Source of the DNA: Rhodococcus rhodochrous
GTDB lineage: Bacteria; Actinomycetota; Actinomycetes; Mycobacteriales; Mycobacteriaceae
DNA length: 64,000 nucleotides
Direction of reading: 5' to 3'
Assembly: GCF_014854695.1 (NCBI RefSeq)
Contig: NZ_CP027557.1
Location: 1,240,001 to 1,304,000, forward strand
Position 1 is the stretch's first letter; every line of letters starts with the position of its first letter. Of the stretch, positions 32,205 through 48,494 are shown in pieces. The notes beneath the pieces were generated by a model, which saw only the letters and a program-made list of their open reading frames with translations, ran no database searches and had not been told where the DNA came from. Made by a program: the position numbers and the translations under genes.

Positions 32205-32846
32205 GTGGGACGACAAGTACGCGCAGAGGTGACACGCGAATCGGTGCTGCAGGGCGCAGCGACGATCTTCGTGCGCGACGGGTACGCGGACGCGAACCTG
32301 GGCGACATCATCGAGGAGGCCGGCGTCACCAAGGGTGCGCTGTACTTCCACTTCGGTTCGAAGGAAGAACTGGCGCGCGGGGTGATCGACTCCGGCTATC
32401 TCCGCTTCGAGGCCGCCGCCGAATCCAAGATGGACCGCCGTTCCCCGGCGCTCGAGACACTGATCGACCTGTCGGTCCTGCACGTCGACATGTCCGAGAC
32501 CGATTCCGTGGTGCGGGCGATGTTCCGGCTGCTGGTCGAGATCGGCGACTACCAGGGCACCGAGCACCGGCCCTACGAGATCTGGCAGAACAACCTGCAG
32601 GAACTCGCAGCCCGGGCCGCCGACGAGGGCGACCTCGTCGAGGACGTCGACGTCCACGCCGTCTCCCTGTTGCTGCTCGAGCAGGCGATGGGCGCACGGA
32701 TCATGGCGAACGCCCTCAAGGCGACCGAACGGCTCGCCGAACAGACGGGCGCGATGTGGCGGATGATCCTGCCCGCGCTGGTGCCGGCGAACAAACTCGA
32801 ATACTTCCGGCAGTTCGTGGAGCGCCGTCTGCGGCTGCAGTCGTGA
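32205..32846 (+). CDS. TetR family regulator resembling gamma-butyrolactone receptors (ScbR-like)
   Basis: A ~213-residue TetR protein whose DNA-binding domain (GRQVRAEVTRESVLQGAA, then EEAGVTKGALYFHFGSKEEL) closely follows the ArpA/ScbR pattern of gamma-butyrolactone receptors. AAGG at 32192-32196 favours the GTG at 32205 (or 32202) over the GTG at 32187. The stop overlaps the next gene by four bases, coupling it to an HTH/PIN pair. It is not in the equivalent mycobacterial interval that I know. Ligand unknown; a receptor for a secreted signal is inference from family. Confidence 0.8.
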   Translation: MGRQVRAEVTRESVLQGAATIFVRDGYADANLGDIIEEAGVTKGALYFHFGSKEELARGVIDSGYLRFEAAAESKMDRRSPALETLIDLSVLHVDMSETDSVVRAMFRLLVEIGDYQGTEHRPYEIWQNNLQELAARAADEGDLVEDVDVHAVSLLLLEQAMGARIMANALKATERLAEQTGAMWRMILPALVPANKLEYFRQFVERRLRLQS

Positions 32847-42440: not shown

Positions 42441-42672
42441 GCGGGTGCCCCCTCGCTGGAAGAGCGTGTCCGGGCCGGCGCCCGAACTCGATGCCCCCAA
42501 TAAACCATACTCAAAGAAGGGAAACAAGCCAAAAAAAGACTTCAGTTTGGTTTTCGTGTTTGCTGGAAACCTGCCGTCTCACCCCCTAATCTCATATCCG
42601 TATTCGTTGTGCCGGTGTCGGGCAGTGCACGCGAAGCAGGGGGAAGCTGGACGTGTTTGGAGGAACTGCCCG
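42441..42672. promoter_or_regulatory. A+T-rich divergent promoter region
   Basis: This 232-base gap separates the sugar operon from the GyrI/E1/c-di-GMP operon. Bases ~42495-42600 contain A runs and T-rich stretches (for example CCAAAAAAAG and TTTGGTTTTCGTGTTTG), far below the surrounding G+C content. GGAGG at 42659-42663 is the ribosome-binding site of the plus-strand gene. A+T-rich promoters in mycolata are frequent targets of the silencer Lsr2; that link is inference. Confidence 0.5.
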
Positions 42673-43137
42673 ATGTCGTTTCAAATCGTGGAGCGCCACG
42701 AAACCCTCGTTGTCGGCATTCCGGTTCGTAGTCCCCGCCGAGCTCTCGGCCGACTCCGAGATCCGCACCTCGAAGAGGCATGGACTGCTCTGCTGAACGG
42801 GGAGACGTACGGTCCGTTCGCCGCGGCCTACACCGATCACGCGGAAGACATAGATTCGTACTACACGCAGACCGTGGGGTTCTGCTGCTCGTCGGTCGAC
42901 GACGTCCCCGAGGGGTATGTCGTATCCCGTGTTCCGGCCGGCACCTACGCGAAGTTCTCCGCGGTGGGAAGCCGATTCACGGACGTCTTCGACGACCTGT
43001 GGCGCCAGATCTGGGACGCCGAAGCGGAAGGTGAGATCACCCGCGCCTTCACCGGCGATTTCGAGACCTACCCGCACGCCTTCGGAATCGAACTCTATGT
43101 CGCGATCGTCGACCCGAGGCAGGAGGCGGACCGATGA
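42673..43137 (+). CDS. GyrI-like small-molecule-binding domain protein
   Basis: A 154-residue stand-alone GyrI-like (AraC effector-binding type) domain. Characteristic parts are FQIVERHETLVVGIPVRSP, VDDVPEGYVVSRVPAGTYAKF and VFDDLWRQIWDAEAEGEITR. Such domains bind, or in some cases hydrolyse, small molecules and may also serve as immunity or sensing proteins. GGAGG lies nine bases before the ATG. No DNA-binding domain is present. It is the first gene of the operon and overlaps a second GyrI-like gene. Confidence 0.8.
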   Translation: MSFQIVERHETLVVGIPVRSPRRALGRLRDPHLEEAWTALLNGETYGPFAAAYTDHAEDIDSYYTQTVGFCCSSVDDVPEGYVVSRVPAGTYAKFSAVGSRFTDVFDDLWRQIWDAEAEGEITRAFTGDFETYPHAFGIELYVAIVDPRQEADR

Positions 43138-43559
43138 CGTTCACGGTCGTGAAGGCGGAACCCTGCCTCGTCGGCGGACTCGTGGTCCCGGGAGCGGAAC
43201 CGGGAGTTTTCGGAGAATCGGGCGATCTGACCGATTTCACATTGGAGCGGTTGCGGCTGAGGAAGATTCGCGACCTCATGGCCGTGTTCACCTGCCATCC
43301 GCGCGTGGGATGGTCCGCGGTCTTCGGATACCGCCTGGACGATCCGGACGATCTGGAGACAGGCGACTCGATGATCCGGGTCGGCGAGCGGTACGCGGCA
43401 CGTTTCGTGCCCGACGGGCCGTCCCCCGACCTCTACAAGGATCTGTGGCGGCAGGTCGAGATGGCCGAGAAGGAAGGCGTGATCAACCGCGCCTACACCC
43501 AGGAGTTGGCGGTCATCCCGGAGCGGGGCGAGCCCGTGTTGTACATATCCGTGGTCTGA
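43134..43559 (+). CDS. Second GyrI-like domain protein
   Basis: A 141-residue relative of the preceding protein with the same C-terminal pattern (ERYAARFVPDGP, DLYKDLWRQVEMAEKEGVIN, VLYISVV). The middle is more divergent (RLRLRKIRDLMAVFTCHPRV). The ATG overlaps the first gene's stop (ATGA), so the two are probably made together and may form a heterodimer. No DNA-binding domain is present. Ligand unknown. Confidence 0.7.
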   Translation: MTFTVVKAEPCLVGGLVVPGAEPGVFGESGDLTDFTLERLRLRKIRDLMAVFTCHPRVGWSAVFGYRLDDPDDLETGDSMIRVGERYAARFVPDGPSPDLYKDLWRQVEMAEKEGVINRAYTQELAVIPERGEPVLYISVV

Positions 43560-43631
43560 GCATGCCCCGGTTCGTCGAGCGCACAACCTCGTCGGGGGGC
43601 GCTCGGCGGGCCGCGGGAGGAAAGGTCGTCC

Positions 43632-44384
43632 GTGGATCCCCAGCCGCTCTTCACGCGCCGCACGCTCGACTTCTGGGACGAGGACTCGGGATATCACTTC
43701 GTCGCCGCCACACCGCAGGGCGAACCGGAACTATGGGCGCAGTTCCTGGACGGTGCCCGCGCCGCCTACCGACGTTTCGGCGCCGAGGGCGCCCTCGAAT
43801 ACGACTCGATCCGTGACGGAAGGTCCACCGCGTTGTTCTTCGCCGCCGTGACGACGGAGGGCGTCGTCCAGGGAGGTTCCCGCGCGCTGGGGCCGTACGG
43901 GAGCGGACGTCAGTCCCACGCCGTCCTGGAATGGACCGACCCCGACATCAGGGCGAGGATCGCGGGGATCCTCGACGCCTACGTCCCCCACGGTCTCATC
44001 GAGGTGAAGAGCACGTGGGTGGGCTCGGGCGCGGTGCGCCGATCCGCGCTCAGTGCGGGAGTGGCGCGCACGCTGACCTATTCGATGGAGCTGCTCGGCA
44101 CGCGGTATCTCGTCGCCACCTCGGCGAGCACGGCGGTGGCCCGCTGGCAGGAGGCGGGAGCGGAGATCGTCGACGAGATCCCGCCCTGCCCCTATCCGGA
44201 CGACCGCTACCGGACGTACCTGATCGTGTGGGACGTCGAACGGTGCAGGTCGGAACGACGGAGCCGGGAGCTCGAGAAACTCCTCGCATCCGATGGGGCG
44301 CCCGGTTTCCCGTATATGTCCTCCCTGCTTCCCCTACGCTCGCTGGGAAGGGGTGACCTGGAGGAATCGGATGGGGAGATGTGA
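43632..44384 (+). CDS. GNAT-fold / acyl-synthase-like hypothetical protein
   Basis: A 250-residue protein without a firm family. The core (residues ~60-200) has a GNAT-like course. A strand ending in IEVKSTWVGSG is followed by an amphipathic helix (ARTLTYSMELLGTRY), a strand (LVATSAS) and a helix leading to WQEAGAEIV. This recalls LuxI/FeeM-type N-acyl synthases more than ordinary acetyltransferases, but the resemblance is weak. The GTG at 43632 has GGGAGG upstream. Its stop overlaps the next gene's ATG by one base (TGATG), so it is translationally coupled to the E1-nitroreductase fusion. Confidence 0.45.
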   Translation: MDPQPLFTRRTLDFWDEDSGYHFVAATPQGEPELWAQFLDGARAAYRRFGAEGALEYDSIRDGRSTALFFAAVTTEGVVQGGSRALGPYGSGRQSHAVLEWTDPDIRARIAGILDAYVPHGLIEVKSTWVGSGAVRRSALSAGVARTLTYSMELLGTRYLVATSASTAVARWQEAGAEIVDEIPPCPYPDDRYRTYLIVWDVERCRSERRSRELEKLLASDGAPGFPYMSSLLPLRSLGRGDLEESDGEM

Positions 44385-46573
44385 TGGCCTCGGAGGACAT
44401 ACCGTGCGCGGCGTTGCTGCTCGCCGAGGACCTCGAAGCGGACATGGCCGTTCTGGAGCAGCTGCGTCGCGACGGCGTGGACCTACGGGATCGACTGGAC
44501 GACCAACGAGCAGGCCTCGCCGCTCTCGGTGACGACCTCCCTGACGAGGCCCCGCGCTGGGCCTACTATCCCTGGAACCGCATCGCGGTCAGGATCCTGG
44601 GCCCTGCCGGATTCGACCGACTCCGGCTCGACCGTAATCGCAACAAGATCACCGCCGACGAGCAGGCGCGCCTGCGTTCCGCGAAGGTGGGCGTCGTCGG
44701 ACTGAGCGTCGGCCACGCCGTCGCCTACACCCTCGCCCTCGAGGGTGCCTGCGGCGCACTGCGTCTCGCCGATTTCGACACGCTCGAGTTGTCCAACATG
44801 AACCGATTGCCCGTATCGATCACGGACCTCGGGGTGAACAAGGCCGTGATCGCGGCGCGGCGTATCGCCGAACTCGACCCCTACCTGCCGGTCGAGGTAT
44901 GGACCGAGGGCGTCACCCCCGAGACGGTGGGGGCGTTCTGCCGGGACCTCGACGTCGTGGTCGACGAGTGCGATTCGCTCGACGTGAAGCTGCTGATCCG
45001 GACGGAAGCGGCGCGGCAACGACTCCCCGTGGTGATGCACACCAGCGATCGAGGACTGCTCGACGTCGAACGATTCGACCTCGACGGCGACCTGCTGCCC
45101 TTCCACGGCCTGCTCGGCGACATCGACCCCGAGACACTGCAGACGCTGTCCACCCGCGACAAGGTCCCGTACGTGCTGCGTCTGCTCGACCCGGAGGAGA
45201 TCTCCGCGCGCATGGCGGCCTCCATGCTCGAGGTCGGTGAATCCTTGGAGACCTGGCCGCAACTCGGAGCCGACGTCGGGCTCGGCGGCGTGACCGTGTC
45301 CGCCGCGGTGCGCGGGATCGTCCTCGATCGCCCCGTCGCATCAGGGCGGTGCCGGGTCGACCTCGACCCGCACCTCGACGCCCTCGACGTGCCCTCCGGG
45401 GCTTCCGATGTGCCGGACGAGGTCGACGAGCCGGCAGGCACCGAACCGGAGGCGACGGTGCCGGAGACCCCGCCGGACGGGGTGCCGCAGGATCCGGTGG
45501 AAGCCGTGATCGACGCCGCGATCCGGGCACCCTCCGGCGGCAACGCCCAGCCGTGGTCGATCGTCGTCGAACCGGACCGTCTGACGTTCGCGCTGGCACC
45601 CGAACCGGAACCCGTCCTGATGGACCTGCACCGGCGCGGGAGTCTCGTCGCGCTCGGCGCAGCCCTGCACAACGCGCGGGTGGCCGCGGCGAATCACAAG
45701 ATCCTGGGGCCGGACACGGTGCTCGATCGTCCCGGCGAACCGGAGCCGGGTGTCCCGCTGGCCCACCTGGAGCTGGGGAGCGACACCGATCCGGATCTCG
45801 CGGCGTACCACGCGGGCATGCTCGCGCGCGCGACCAACCGGTCACCCGGTGATCCCCACACCGTCACGGACGACGAACTCGAGGCGATGCACGCGGCCGC
45901 CCGCCTCGTCGGCGGACGTATCGGGGTCGTCACCGAGAGCGCCGACATCGCCCGCCTCGCGGAGATCCTCGCGGAATCGGATCGCGTGCGGTATCTCGAC
46001 AATCGGCTCCGCAGCGAGATGGTCGCCGAGCTGCGGTGGCCGGGCGACCCCGATCCCGACAGCGGAATCGAGGTGGACTCCCTCGGACTCGACACCGCGG
46101 AGGCGGCGATGCTCGACGTCGTCCTGCGCGACGACGCCCTCGACCGGCTCGCGGAGTGGGGACTCGGGAGGGGCCTCGGCAAGATGACCCGCGACCGCGT
46201 GCTCGGTAGTGCCGGACTCGTCGCGGTGTTCACCGAAGGCCGTTCGCCTGCCGACTACATCCGGGGCGGTGCGGTGGTCGAGAGCGTCTGGATCGCGGCG
46301 CAGGAGATCGGTCTGGCCGTCCAGCCCGTGTCGCCGGTCTTCCTGTACGCCGATACGCGAAGCGATCTCGAGCGTCTGAGCCCGAGGCATGTCGACGATC
46401 TCGACGCGCTCCGGCAGGATCTGCACGCCGTCCTGAACGTTCCCGAGGGTGGAGGCCTCGCCCTGCTGTTGCGCTTCGGTCGTGCCTCGGCTGCGACGAT
46501 GCGCAGCCGGCGCCGGAACGACCGCGTGCGACATGTCGGCGATGTCGACGGACTCATCCCTGCTCCTGGCTGA
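44384..46573 (+). CDS. E1-like (ThiF) and nitroreductase fusion protein, Rv1355c type
   Basis: A 729-residue fusion. Residues ~85-300 form an E1/ThiF adenylating domain: VGVVGLSVGHAVAYTLALEG, LADFDTLELSNMNRL, GVNKAVIAARR and VVDECDSLDVK hold the nucleotide, Asp, Arg and Lys positions. A Pro/Glu-rich linker (~330-375) leads to an FMN nitroreductase domain starting AAIRAPSGGNAQPW. It resembles Rv1355c (annotated MoeY) in length and order. E1 domains adenylate a carboxylate; nitroreductases can oxidise azolines. The combined reaction is unknown. ATG 44384 is preferred over the GTG at 44381 because GGGAG then has proper spacing. Confidence 0.8.
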   Translation: MASEDIPCAALLLAEDLEADMAVLEQLRRDGVDLRDRLDDQRAGLAALGDDLPDEAPRWAYYPWNRIAVRILGPAGFDRLRLDRNRNKITADEQARLRSAKVGVVGLSVGHAVAYTLALEGACGALRLADFDTLELSNMNRLPVSITDLGVNKAVIAARRIAELDPYLPVEVWTEGVTPETVGAFCRDLDVVVDECDSLDVKLLIRTEAARQRLPVVMHTSDRGLLDVERFDLDGDLLPFHGLLGDIDPETLQTLSTRDKVPYVLRLLDPEEISARMAASMLEVGESLETWPQLGADVGLGGVTVSAAVRGIVLDRPVASGRCRVDLDPHLDALDVPSGASDVPDEVDEPAGTEPEATVPETPPDGVPQDPVEAVIDAAIRAPSGGNAQPWSIVVEPDRLTFALAPEPEPVLMDLHRRGSLVALGAALHNARVAAANHKILGPDTVLDRPGEPEPGVPLAHLELGSDTDPDLAAYHAGMLARATNRSPGDPHTVTDDELEAMHAAARLVGGRIGVVTESADIARLAEILAESDRVRYLDNRLRSEMVAELRWPGDPDPDSGIEVDSLGLDTAEAAMLDVVLRDDALDRLAEWGLGRGLGKMTRDRVLGSAGLVAVFTEGRSPADYIRGGAVVESVWIAAQEIGLAVQPVSPVFLYADTRSDLERLSPRHVDDLDALRQDLHAVLNVPEGGGLALLLRFGRASAATMRSRRRNDRVRHVGDVDGLIPAPG

Positions 46574-46586
46574 CGACGGAGGTGTC

Positions 46587-48494
46587 ATGCCCGGTACGAG
46601 AAGAACACTCGAAAGCCTGGTGACGAGGATCGCCGCACGGCTGATGCCCGCGGACGCGGCCTCGCACGTGGAGGTAGTGCGTCTCGTACTCCGGGATCTC
46701 GTCGAGCAACTCGGCGTCGACACCTGCTTCCTGAGGTACAACGACCACGAGATCGGGGCGACGATCCTGGTCGCCGAGTGGCCGCCGCGGGAGAACGTGC
46801 CCGACCCCGATCCCATCGGTGTGGTCTATTTCCGCGATGCGGACCCCGTCTTCGCGGCCGTGGAGCATCTGAAGGAACCGCTGCTGGCGGGTGCCGGCGG
46901 GACGTCGTATCCGGCTGTCGAGTCCCCCGACTACACCGAGCGGGTGTTCGCCGCATCGGGATGGTCGGAGATCTCCATGGTGGCCGTGCCGCTCGTGTCC
47001 GGGCAGGTCACGACCGGCGTGCTGGGCTTCGTGAACGAAGGGGGGCGGCCGTGGACCGAGGACGAGGTCAACGCGTTGACGTTGATCGCGGTCCTGCTCG
47101 CACAGGTGCAGGCACGCGTCCGGGCGGAGGAAGATCTGCGTAGGGCTGCCTACGAGGACGCCCTCACCGGACTCGCGAGCCGACGCGCTCTGTTCGAATA
47201 TCTCGACAAGCGGCTCGAACCGGGCGCGGAGGGCCCGGTCGGGTTGCTGTTCCTCGACCTCGATCGTCTCAAGGCGTTGAACGACTTCCTCGGACACGAC
47301 GCGGCCGACTCGTATCTCTGCCGGATCGCGGACCGTCTTGCGAAGGGCAGCAGGCCCGACGACCTCGTCGCCCGGCTCGGCGGTGACGAATTCGTCGTGG
47401 TGCTGGACGGTCCGTCCACGATGGAGGAGGCGATGGAGCGGGCCGAGGTGTACCAGGATGCGGTGGGGGCGTCCGTCGCGCTCGGTAACCGGACCGTCGG
47501 GCGCGGCGTCAGCGTGGGTGTCGCGCTCGGGACGCCGGGGGAGGTGAGTTCGGCGTCGCTGCTCAGTCGTGCCGATCAGGCGATGATGGTGGCCAAGCGG
47601 CAGGGTGGCAACGGTGTGGGTGTGTTCACCGAGGACATGAACGAGAAGGGCAAGCGCCGCACCATCATCGAGATGAACCTCCGCTCCTCGATCGACGACG
47701 AGCACCTGACGCTGGAGTACCAGCCCGAGATCGACCTGCGGACCGGAACGATCCTCGGCGTCGAAGCGCTCGTGCGATGGAATCGTTCACCGCTGGGCGT
47801 GCTCCAGCCGGGAGAATTCGTCGAGGTCGCCGAGGCCACCAATCTCGCCGGGGAACTGGGGGAGTGGGTCGTCACGCGGGCCTGTGCGCAACTCGCGGAG
47901 TGGAAACGAGAGATTCCCGACCTGCGGATCATCATGAGTGTCAATGTTTCTCCCGTCCAGTTGGTGTCGATGGACTTCGACTCCACGGTGAGATCGGTCC
48001 TGCACCACCACGTCCTCGTGGGGTCGGAACTGTGCCTCGAGATCACCGAGAACGTGGTCGTGGGCGACCTCCAGCGCACGAAGGACACCCTCCGCCGGCT
48101 CGAGCGGCTGGGGGTGTGGGTCGCGATCGACGATTTCGGGACCGGGTACAGCTCGCTCGGGCATCTCAAGGCTCTTCCCGTCGACACGCTCAAGATCGAC
48201 AAGGGTTTCGTGCAGAACCTCGAGCACAGCGAGGAAGATCGGGTCATCGTCGATTCCATCGTGGGTCTGGCCTCGTCGTTCGGCCTGCAGGTGGTCGCGG
48301 AGGGTGTCGAGACCGTCGGTGCCGTGAAGCAGTTGCTGGATCTGGGTTGCACACGGGCGCAAGGCTTTCTGCTGAGCAGGCCCACCACGCCCGACCGGCT
48401 CCGATGGATGCTCCAGGCCGGGAGTGTGCGGTTGCCGTGGAACACGGACACGTGGGCGGCGACGAAGAGTGTGAAGGGCCGACTGCCCCGCTGA
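46587..48494 (+). CDS. GAF-GGDEF-EAL c-di-GMP turnover protein (Rv1354c-like)
   Basis: A 635-residue cytoplasmic protein with an N-terminal GAF domain (~15-175), a diguanylate cyclase domain with intact RLGGDEFVVV, and a phosphodiesterase domain with intact EALVRW, DDFGTGYSSLGHLK and EGVET. An RxxD (RPDD) lies five residues before GGDEF, the product-inhibition I-site position. Both activities are therefore possible, with the GAF domain as input. GGAGG precedes the ATG at 46587. The gene follows the E1-nitroreductase fusion by 13 bases, as Rv1354c neighbours Rv1355c in M. tuberculosis. Confidence 0.92.
   Translation: MPGTRRTLESLVTRIAARLMPADAASHVEVVRLVLRDLVEQLGVDTCFLRYNDHEIGATILVAEWPPRENVPDPDPIGVVYFRDADPVFAAVEHLKEPLLAGAGGTSYPAVESPDYTERVFAASGWSEISMVAVPLVSGQVTTGVLGFVNEGGRPWTEDEVNALTLIAVLLAQVQARVRAEEDLRRAAYEDALTGLASRRALFEYLDKRLEPGAEGPVGLLFLDLDRLKALNDFLGHDAADSYLCRIADRLAKGSRPDDLVARLGGDEFVVVLDGPSTMEEAMERAEVYQDAVGASVALGNRTVGRGVSVGVALGTPGEVSSASLLSRADQAMMVAKRQGGNGVGVFTEDMNEKGKRRTIIEMNLRSSIDDEHLTLEYQPEIDLRTGTILGVEALVRWNRSPLGVLQPGEFVEVAEATNLAGELGEWVVTRACAQLAEWKREIPDLRIIMSVNVSPVQLVSMDFDSTVRSVLHHHVLVGSELCLEITENVVVGDLQRTKDTLRRLERLGVWVAIDDFGTGYSSLGHLKALPVDTLKIDKGFVQNLEHSEEDRVIVDSIVGLASSFGLQVVAEGVETVGAVKQLLDLGCTRAQGFLLSRPTTPDRLRWMLQAGSVRLPWNTDTWAATKSVKGRLPR

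Follow-up and report, generated by a model that had tools for sequence, protein, structure and literature searches.

We analysed a stretch of 64,000 nucleotides from Rhodococcus rhodochrous (contig NZ_CP027557.1, positions 1,240,001 to 1,304,000; "the window" below), and in particular an operon of five plus-strand genes, in which two GyrI-like proteins and a predicted TrzA/TrzS-type synthase are accompanied by an enzyme of cyclic di-GMP (c-di-GMP) turnover. The five genes of the initial annotation of this DNA are all present at the following coordinates, preceded by an intergenic region:

42528..42672, no strand assigned: intergenic region from a minus-strand methyltransferase gene to the first GyrI gene, by position alone the probable promoter region of the operon
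42673..43137, plus strand: GyrI/Cass2-type small-molecule-binding protein 1 (P0001, 154 amino acids; Pfam Cass2 and GyrI-like)
43134..43559, plus strand: GyrI/Cass2-type protein 2 (P0002, 141 amino acids), a distant paralogue of P0001 (its family profile leads to the Cass2 structure 3gk6)
43632..44384, plus strand: TrzA-like amino-acid N-acyltransferase (P0003, 250 amino acids; GNAT fold)
44381..46573, plus strand: TrzS-like fusion of a ThiF cyclase and a flavin oxidase (P0004; NF005901, D198 and R537)
46587..48494, plus strand: GAF-GGDEF-EAL c-di-GMP enzyme of the Rv1354c/MSDGC-1 type (P0005, 635 amino acids; Pfam domains and motifs)

P0004 matches NF005901, the Rv1355c family of ThiF cyclases fused to a flavin oxidase, with 869 bits at a cut-off of 476. 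Residues D198 and R537 are invariant in all 13 aligned TrzS proteins, and Q648 is also present in P0004 but not universal among the 13. By spacing (the Mycobacterium smegmatis sequence itself is not in the alignment), these residues correspond to D217, R540 and Q651 of M. smegmatis TrzS, which have been tested as residues of the ATP site (D217) and the flavin site (R540 and Q651) (PMC12856293). The spacing of R537 and Q648 agrees with that of R540 and Q651, and the distance from the Asp to the Gln is 433-435 in six mycobacterial TrzS proteins and ~444 in L160, in agreement with 651-217=434. P0003 has no Pfam or NCBIfam match at an E-value of 1, and a sequence search for a solved TrzA structure yielded nothing useful. 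Its structural model is close to LasI and FeeM and has a GNAT/LuxI-type fold, as the initial annotation had proposed for the third gene. We take P0003 to be TrzA because its gene lies directly upstream of trzS and overlaps it by 4 bases, and because, of 200 Mycobacteriales genomes, the same 25 contain the TrzA-type and the TrzS-type family.

Rv1356c and Rv1355c (TrzA and TrzS), as well as their homologues from M. smegmatis and R. jostii RHA1, produce N-acyl tryptophan and then N-acyl tryptazolone, with TrzS carrying out an ATP-dependent cyclisation followed by a desaturation by the flavin domain (PMC12856293, J Biol Chem, Dec 2025). On the basis of the sequence comparisons, P0003 and P0004 almost certainly represent a TrzAS-type synthase of this published family, and the product in this Rhodococcus would be an acyl-oxazolone, probably derived from tryptophan. 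The proposed synthesis of a small molecule, comprising acylation, activation of a carboxylate with ATP and oxidation by a flavin enzyme, agrees with the TrzA/TrzS reactions. Because P0003 and P0004 match TrzA and TrzS, the pathway chemistry is not new, and the idea of a wholly undescribed system had to be given up: enzymes and product class are in print, and the adjacency of c-di-GMP genes in M. tuberculosis is mentioned there as well (PMC12856293). A protein-modifying E1 system was likewise considered and rejected, as P0004 belongs to the TrzS family.

P0005 contains GAF (4e-9), GGDEF (7e-36) and EAL (6e-68) domains in that order, together with the GGDEF, EAL and DDFG motifs. Its GGDEF match is the only one in the genome of the window; the numbers in ten genomes scanned for GGDEF ranged from 1 to 16. 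Rv1354c is bifunctional, i.e. it both synthesises and hydrolyses c-di-GMP (PMC2994820). MSMEG_2196 is the sole GGDEF/EAL enzyme of M. smegmatis (PMC12632254), and MSMEG_2199-2196 can form one transcript according to earlier work cited in PMC5741613.

One sentence in PMC12856293 states that the M. tuberculosis locus adjoins the c-di-GMP genes rv1354c and rv1357c. We found that this adjacency holds far more generally, and that linkage of TrzS to a GGDEF gene is near-universal in the sampled Actinomycetota. Of the 25 TrzS genomes in the set of 200, 23 carry a full-length P0005 orthologue (at least 514 bits), compared with 6 of the remaining 175. An orthologue lies within 10 kb at 26 of 28 TrzS-fusion places, a count that includes one orthologue split by a contig break and two truncated at contig ends. 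We also inspected named TrzS-like loci, i.e. 80 of 178 confirmed ones, with 58 actinobacterial and 19 Bacteroidota loci among those listed. For 55 of the 58 actinobacterial loci a GGDEF or EAL gene lies within 6.5 kb (53 within 3 kb, two more within 6.5 kb); one of the three exceptions ends 183 bases past TrzS at a contig end. Two loci, L228 and L162, run to the edge of their contigs, so that they could not be judged. Among 301 genomes of the same family, the P0005 orthologue occurs in 107 of 137 TrzS-positive versus 13 of 164 TrzS-negative genomes. These genomes contain 123 listed full-length TrzS places (at least 1,900 bases; shorter and lower-listed places were left out), with a GGDEF gene no more than 6 kb away at 119 of them; the P0005 orthologue itself lies within 3 kb at 91 places and at 5-6 kb at three more. 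The conservation that the initial annotation had noted for the Rv1354c/Rv1355c pair therefore extends well beyond that pair.

Most c-di-GMP neighbours of TrzS belong to the GAF-GGDEF-EAL family of P0005, from Acidimicrobiia to Mycobacteriales. In the tree of this family, trz-linked members come from Acidimicrobiaceae, Jiangella, Nakamurella, Actinomycetospora, Nocardia, Rhodococcus and Mycobacterium, and just two changes are needed for 78 linked and 11 unlinked rows, the latter being the fetched paralogues and not every unlinked one. Two individual loci may be mentioned: in G160, two tandem GAF-GGDEF-EAL copies follow one TrzS (L075:4806-8443), and in a gammaproteobacterial metagenome-assembled genome (Granulosicoccaceae, L157:3904-6372) a GGDEF-EAL gene lies ~0.9 kb from TrzA/TrzS-like genes.

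The assumption that the partner is always a P0005 orthologue was rejected, as 29 of the 123 places have no orthologue within 6 kb. At 25 of these 29 places, another GGDEF gene was found within 0.4 kb of trzA/trzS; two of the 25 are P0005-like GGDEF-EAL genes (one frame-broken in a draft genome) and 23 encode a different protein. Of the remaining four places, one is cut by a contig end and three have no GGDEF neighbour. All nine of the 23 swapped partners that were analysed with Pfam contain GGDEF, and a scan of eight revealed four to seven hydrophobic stretches in every one, indicative of membrane-type proteins. The 23 swapped loci form one clade in the TrzS tree, and a Nakamurella-like genome adds another case, so that one or two swaps are represented, not 23. 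Separately, split ThiF-only or TrzA-only relatives (L089, L090 and L096) adjoin a GGDEF gene with hydrophobic stretches.

Inheritance alone is a poor explanation for an unrelated c-di-GMP enzyme that occupies this position. This bears on the possibility that the genes have merely stayed together through shared history, for which it can be said that many of the linked loci represent one lineage and that the P0005-type linkage looks ancestral. However, G080 has duplicate trz loci with their own P0005 orthologue at each, and none of 20 control regions, chosen at round coordinates, contains a GGDEF gene (in the scan of the 29 places and the controls, distances refer to the matched stretches and not to precise gene boundaries). 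In addition, a comparison of 60 loci revealed that the only families common to Rhodococcus and another genus are the five operon genes and their shadow frames; SDR-like, acyl-CoA dehydrogenase-like and other large common families recur only in the flanks of Mycobacterium, Nocardia, Nakamurella and Acidimicrobiaceae. Hitchhiking without a functional tie is therefore very unlikely in our view, and we consider it likely that synthase and c-di-GMP enzyme are functionally coupled, by whatever route.

The two GyrI/Cass2-type proteins have a much narrower distribution. P0001 exceeds the Pfam cut-offs for Cass2 (3.5e-20, 73.2 bits, cut-off 27) and GyrI-like (5.2e-10, 40.2 bits, cut-off 26), and all 15 aligned proteins share its residues E131 and Y133. 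P0002 has no Pfam match, but its family profile finds the Cass2 structure 3gk6 at 4.3e-6. Among the named loci, five of the six from Rhodococcus and all ten from Nocardia have the pair directly upstream of trzA (or, in loci that lack trzA, of trzS); the 42 named actinobacterial loci outside these two genera are all without it. An obligatory role in the module was therefore rejected, and the pair is an addition of the Rhodococcus/Nocardia group to the locus, limited to a small number of genera within the family. The second GyrI protein is found in 92 of 301 genomes (at 128 bits or more; of 97 genomes at E 1e-6, five weak ones with 76-95 bits were dropped); 86 of these 92 are TrzS-positive, and in 53 of the 301 it lies within 2 kb of TrzS. 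GyrI pairs also occur in other settings. In two genus-g4 genomes that were examined, the pair is located away from trzAS and stands directly before an ScbR-family regulator of the gamma-butyrolactone receptor type (L201:7533-9285 and L202:7347-9189; 158.7 and 143 bits at a cut-off of 150), and a second, divergent pair is present elsewhere in Nocardia-type genomes (L203:7626-8745 and L204).

Six genomes with the GyrI pair lack TrzS, three from the genus of the window and three from the Nocardia-type genus g3. In all six, GyrI-GyrI-P0005 follow each other in a row, and searches detected neither TrzA nor the TrzS fusion; a relative of the ThiF half is present elsewhere in one of these genomes. 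When TrzS proteins of relatives were used as queries, remnants were detected in the gaps of all three g3 loci, the best with 41% over ~125 residues (E 7e-12) and the other two with E-values of 7.5e-5 and 2e-4, values that cover only the six short stretches searched. The remnants indicate that trzAS was deleted in the g3 loci. No remnants were found in the three Rhodococcus gaps (57-235 bases); since the order trzA-trzS-P0005 is far older, deletion is the simplest reading for these loci as well. The c-di-GMP enzyme is intact in five of the six genomes, free of stop codons and with the GGDEF, EAL and DDFG motifs kept; in the sixth (L213:4321-7955) its gene is split by ~2 kb of other DNA. That the GyrI pair and the c-di-GMP enzyme outlast the synthase is consistent with a receiver, and counts against a GyrI pair that serves self-protection only.

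Such a protection or carrier module would bind or hydrolyse the reactive oxazolone, in the way that GyrI-like cyclopropanoid hydrolases act on their substrates. GyrI-like hydrolases are known from biosynthetic clusters (PMC5684135), oxazolones are readily hydrolysed in acid (PMC12856293), and P0001 retains an acidic residue two positions before the conserved tyrosine. In contrast, the pair persists in the six genomes without the synthase, and P0002 has a V where 16 aligned relatives carry E or D. The hydrolase structure 3b49 (lin2189) is not among the 11 matches of the profile of P0001 relatives at E 10, which is weak evidence in the same direction. Taken together, we regard protection as distinctly unlikely.

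We propose the following mechanism. TrzA would acylate an amino acid, probably tryptophan, using a short or medium acyl-CoA, and TrzS would adenylate and cyclise the carboxylate, after which its flavin domain would introduce the desaturation, yielding an N-acyl oxazolone. This compound, or the N-acyl amino acid in the medium, may be sensed by the GAF domain of P0005, assisted in Rhodococcus and Nocardia by the two GyrI/Cass2 proteins. Sensing would shift the balance of GGDEF and EAL activities and thereby change net c-di-GMP. That the product of the synthase is sensed through the c-di-GMP enzyme, where both the sensing step and its sign are deduced, is in our estimate slightly short of an even chance. 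Less likely, but still quite possible, is an autoinducer-like system of Actinomycetota, in which TrzA (LuxI fold) and TrzS would produce an acyl-oxazolone or N-acyl-tryptophan signal. The receptor would be the GAF domain of a bifunctional c-di-GMP enzyme, joined in Rhodococcus and Nocardia by the GyrI/Cass2 proteins in the role of co-receptors.

Several observations weigh against this mechanism. Tryptazolones are mostly retained inside cells, and it is the N-acyl tryptophans that occur in the medium (PMC12856293). In the P0005 family, mean identity is no higher for GAF (0.505) than for the other two domains (0.521 and 0.566). Aggregation of an MSMEG_2196 mutant was the same as that of the wild type (PMC12632254). 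The genome counts take no account of shared ancestry, and the 23 swapped loci represent one inherited event. A GGDEF/EAL link was found in none of the 19 named Bacteroidota loci, and eight of the 13 TrzS-negative genomes with a P0005 orthologue are not of the GyrI type. In 29 genus-g4 genomes the GyrI pair is present, never beside trzAS. Three extra TrzS copies (L244, L246 and L247) have neither a TrzA nor a GGDEF neighbour; each of their genomes also holds another TrzS flanked by a P0005 orthologue. Finally, a TrzA match was found near TrzS in 49 of the 58 named actinobacterial loci (L111 counted as Rhodococcus) and not in the other nine. Nocardia-type loci (L119, L142 and L216, and those of genomes G306, G421 and G464) have the GyrI pair, TrzS and P0005 with no TrzA in between. 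TrzA was not found anywhere in G306, G421 and G464, so that TrzS may draw its acyl amino acid from elsewhere.

Linkage by itself carries no direction, and the c-di-GMP enzyme could also report a surface or stress state, with TrzAS as the output that makes a membrane or stress lipid and not a signal. A link to stress adaptation is proposed in PMC12856293, and tryptazolone is enriched in cell pellets. However, the GyrI pair and an intact P0005 orthologue persist after the loss of trzAS, so that P0005 is kept without a lipid output, and no known c-di-GMP-binding domain is among the Pfam and NCBIfam matches of TrzA or TrzS. We therefore judge the reverse direction to be unlikely. The near-universal link, the swap of the partner and the loci that lost the synthase lead to a testable version of our proposal, in which the oxazolone, or the acyl-tryptophan from which it is formed, would act as the ligand controlling c-di-GMP. 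The Rhodococcus analysed here is suited to such a test because only a single GGDEF domain was detected in the genome. In the autoinducer-like reading, the signal would govern the whole c-di-GMP pool in species with a single GGDEF protein such as this one, and strains with GyrI-GyrI-GGDEF/EAL but without trzAS would be receiver-only eavesdroppers, similar to LuxR solos.

The operon is flanked by a cluster of sugar methyltransferase, cytidylyltransferase and epimerase genes and by an EPS-type sugar transferase (404 bits), and the initial annotation had proposed that the small molecule acts via c-di-GMP on these surface glycan genes on both sides. The upstream cluster is indeed next to the GyrI pair in four of six Rhodococcus loci (L110, L112, L120 and L159), and the downstream sugar transferase is present in three of six but missing after the P0005 orthologue in R. 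gordoniae. In contrast, both neighbours are absent from all 11 Nocardia-type loci (two of which are from one genome), the glycan genes are not among the families that recur across genera, and loss of MSMEG_2196 left aggregation unchanged (PMC12632254). Glycan genes as a conserved part across genera were therefore rejected, and their position beside the operon is local synteny. We assign very little probability to the proposed glycan output.

A consensus scan for promoters and terminators gave matches at about chance level and revealed no plus-strand promoter-like site in 42528..42672. The window also encodes a TetR regulator of the ScbR-family autoregulator-receptor type (32205-32846, plus strand; 171 bits, cut-off 150), ~10 kb upstream of the operon and close to mfd. 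From this gene, gamma-butyrolactone signalling is possible in the same strain.

LuxI/LuxR systems represent acyl-homoserine lactone signalling. TrzA shares the GNAT fold with LuxI-type synthases, but the fold does not single out LuxI because generic GNATs and FeeM score equally. Unlike LuxI/LuxR, the operon contains no LuxR gene, and its proposed output would be c-di-GMP.

The closest likeness is to the TrzAS pathway of M. tuberculosis, M. smegmatis and R. jostii RHA1 (PMC12856293): a TrzA-type gene directly precedes the ThiF-flavin oxidase fusion, the ATP and FMN residues match by spacing, and the bacteria belong to the same order. In contrast to that pathway, a GyrI/Cass2 pair precedes trzA in the window; the term "GyrI" is absent from the main text of PMC12856293, and in the sections considered here c-di-GMP neighbours are named for M. 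tuberculosis only. In the open-access literature, as far as its text was available, this was the one paper found to mention the c-di-GMP adjacency of trz genes, and no mention was found of the GyrI pair, the partner swap or the synthase-less loci. The tyrazolone pathway (TyzACB, and OxzAB) likewise proceeds by acylation, ThiF cyclisation and flavin desaturation to an acyl oxazolone, but the Tyz enzymes are separate proteins and their product is derived from tyrosine with a long chain (PMC10404671); a term search of the available text of that paper did not return c-di-GMP, GGDEF or GyrI. P0005 shares domain order and motifs with Rv1354c/MSDGC-1, for which the available account names no GAF ligand and contains no occurrence of Rv1355c (PMC2994820). 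Lastly, BrlR is a receptor of c-di-GMP and pyocyanin, and its GyrI-like domain binds an aromatic compound that the cell makes itself (PMC6028453). Unlike this DNA-binding regulator, P0001 and P0002 are lone domains of ~150 amino acids, and the sequence match has an E-value of just 0.05. By analogy, BrlR may nevertheless serve as a precedent for a tie between such binding by a GyrI-like domain and c-di-GMP (PMC6028453).

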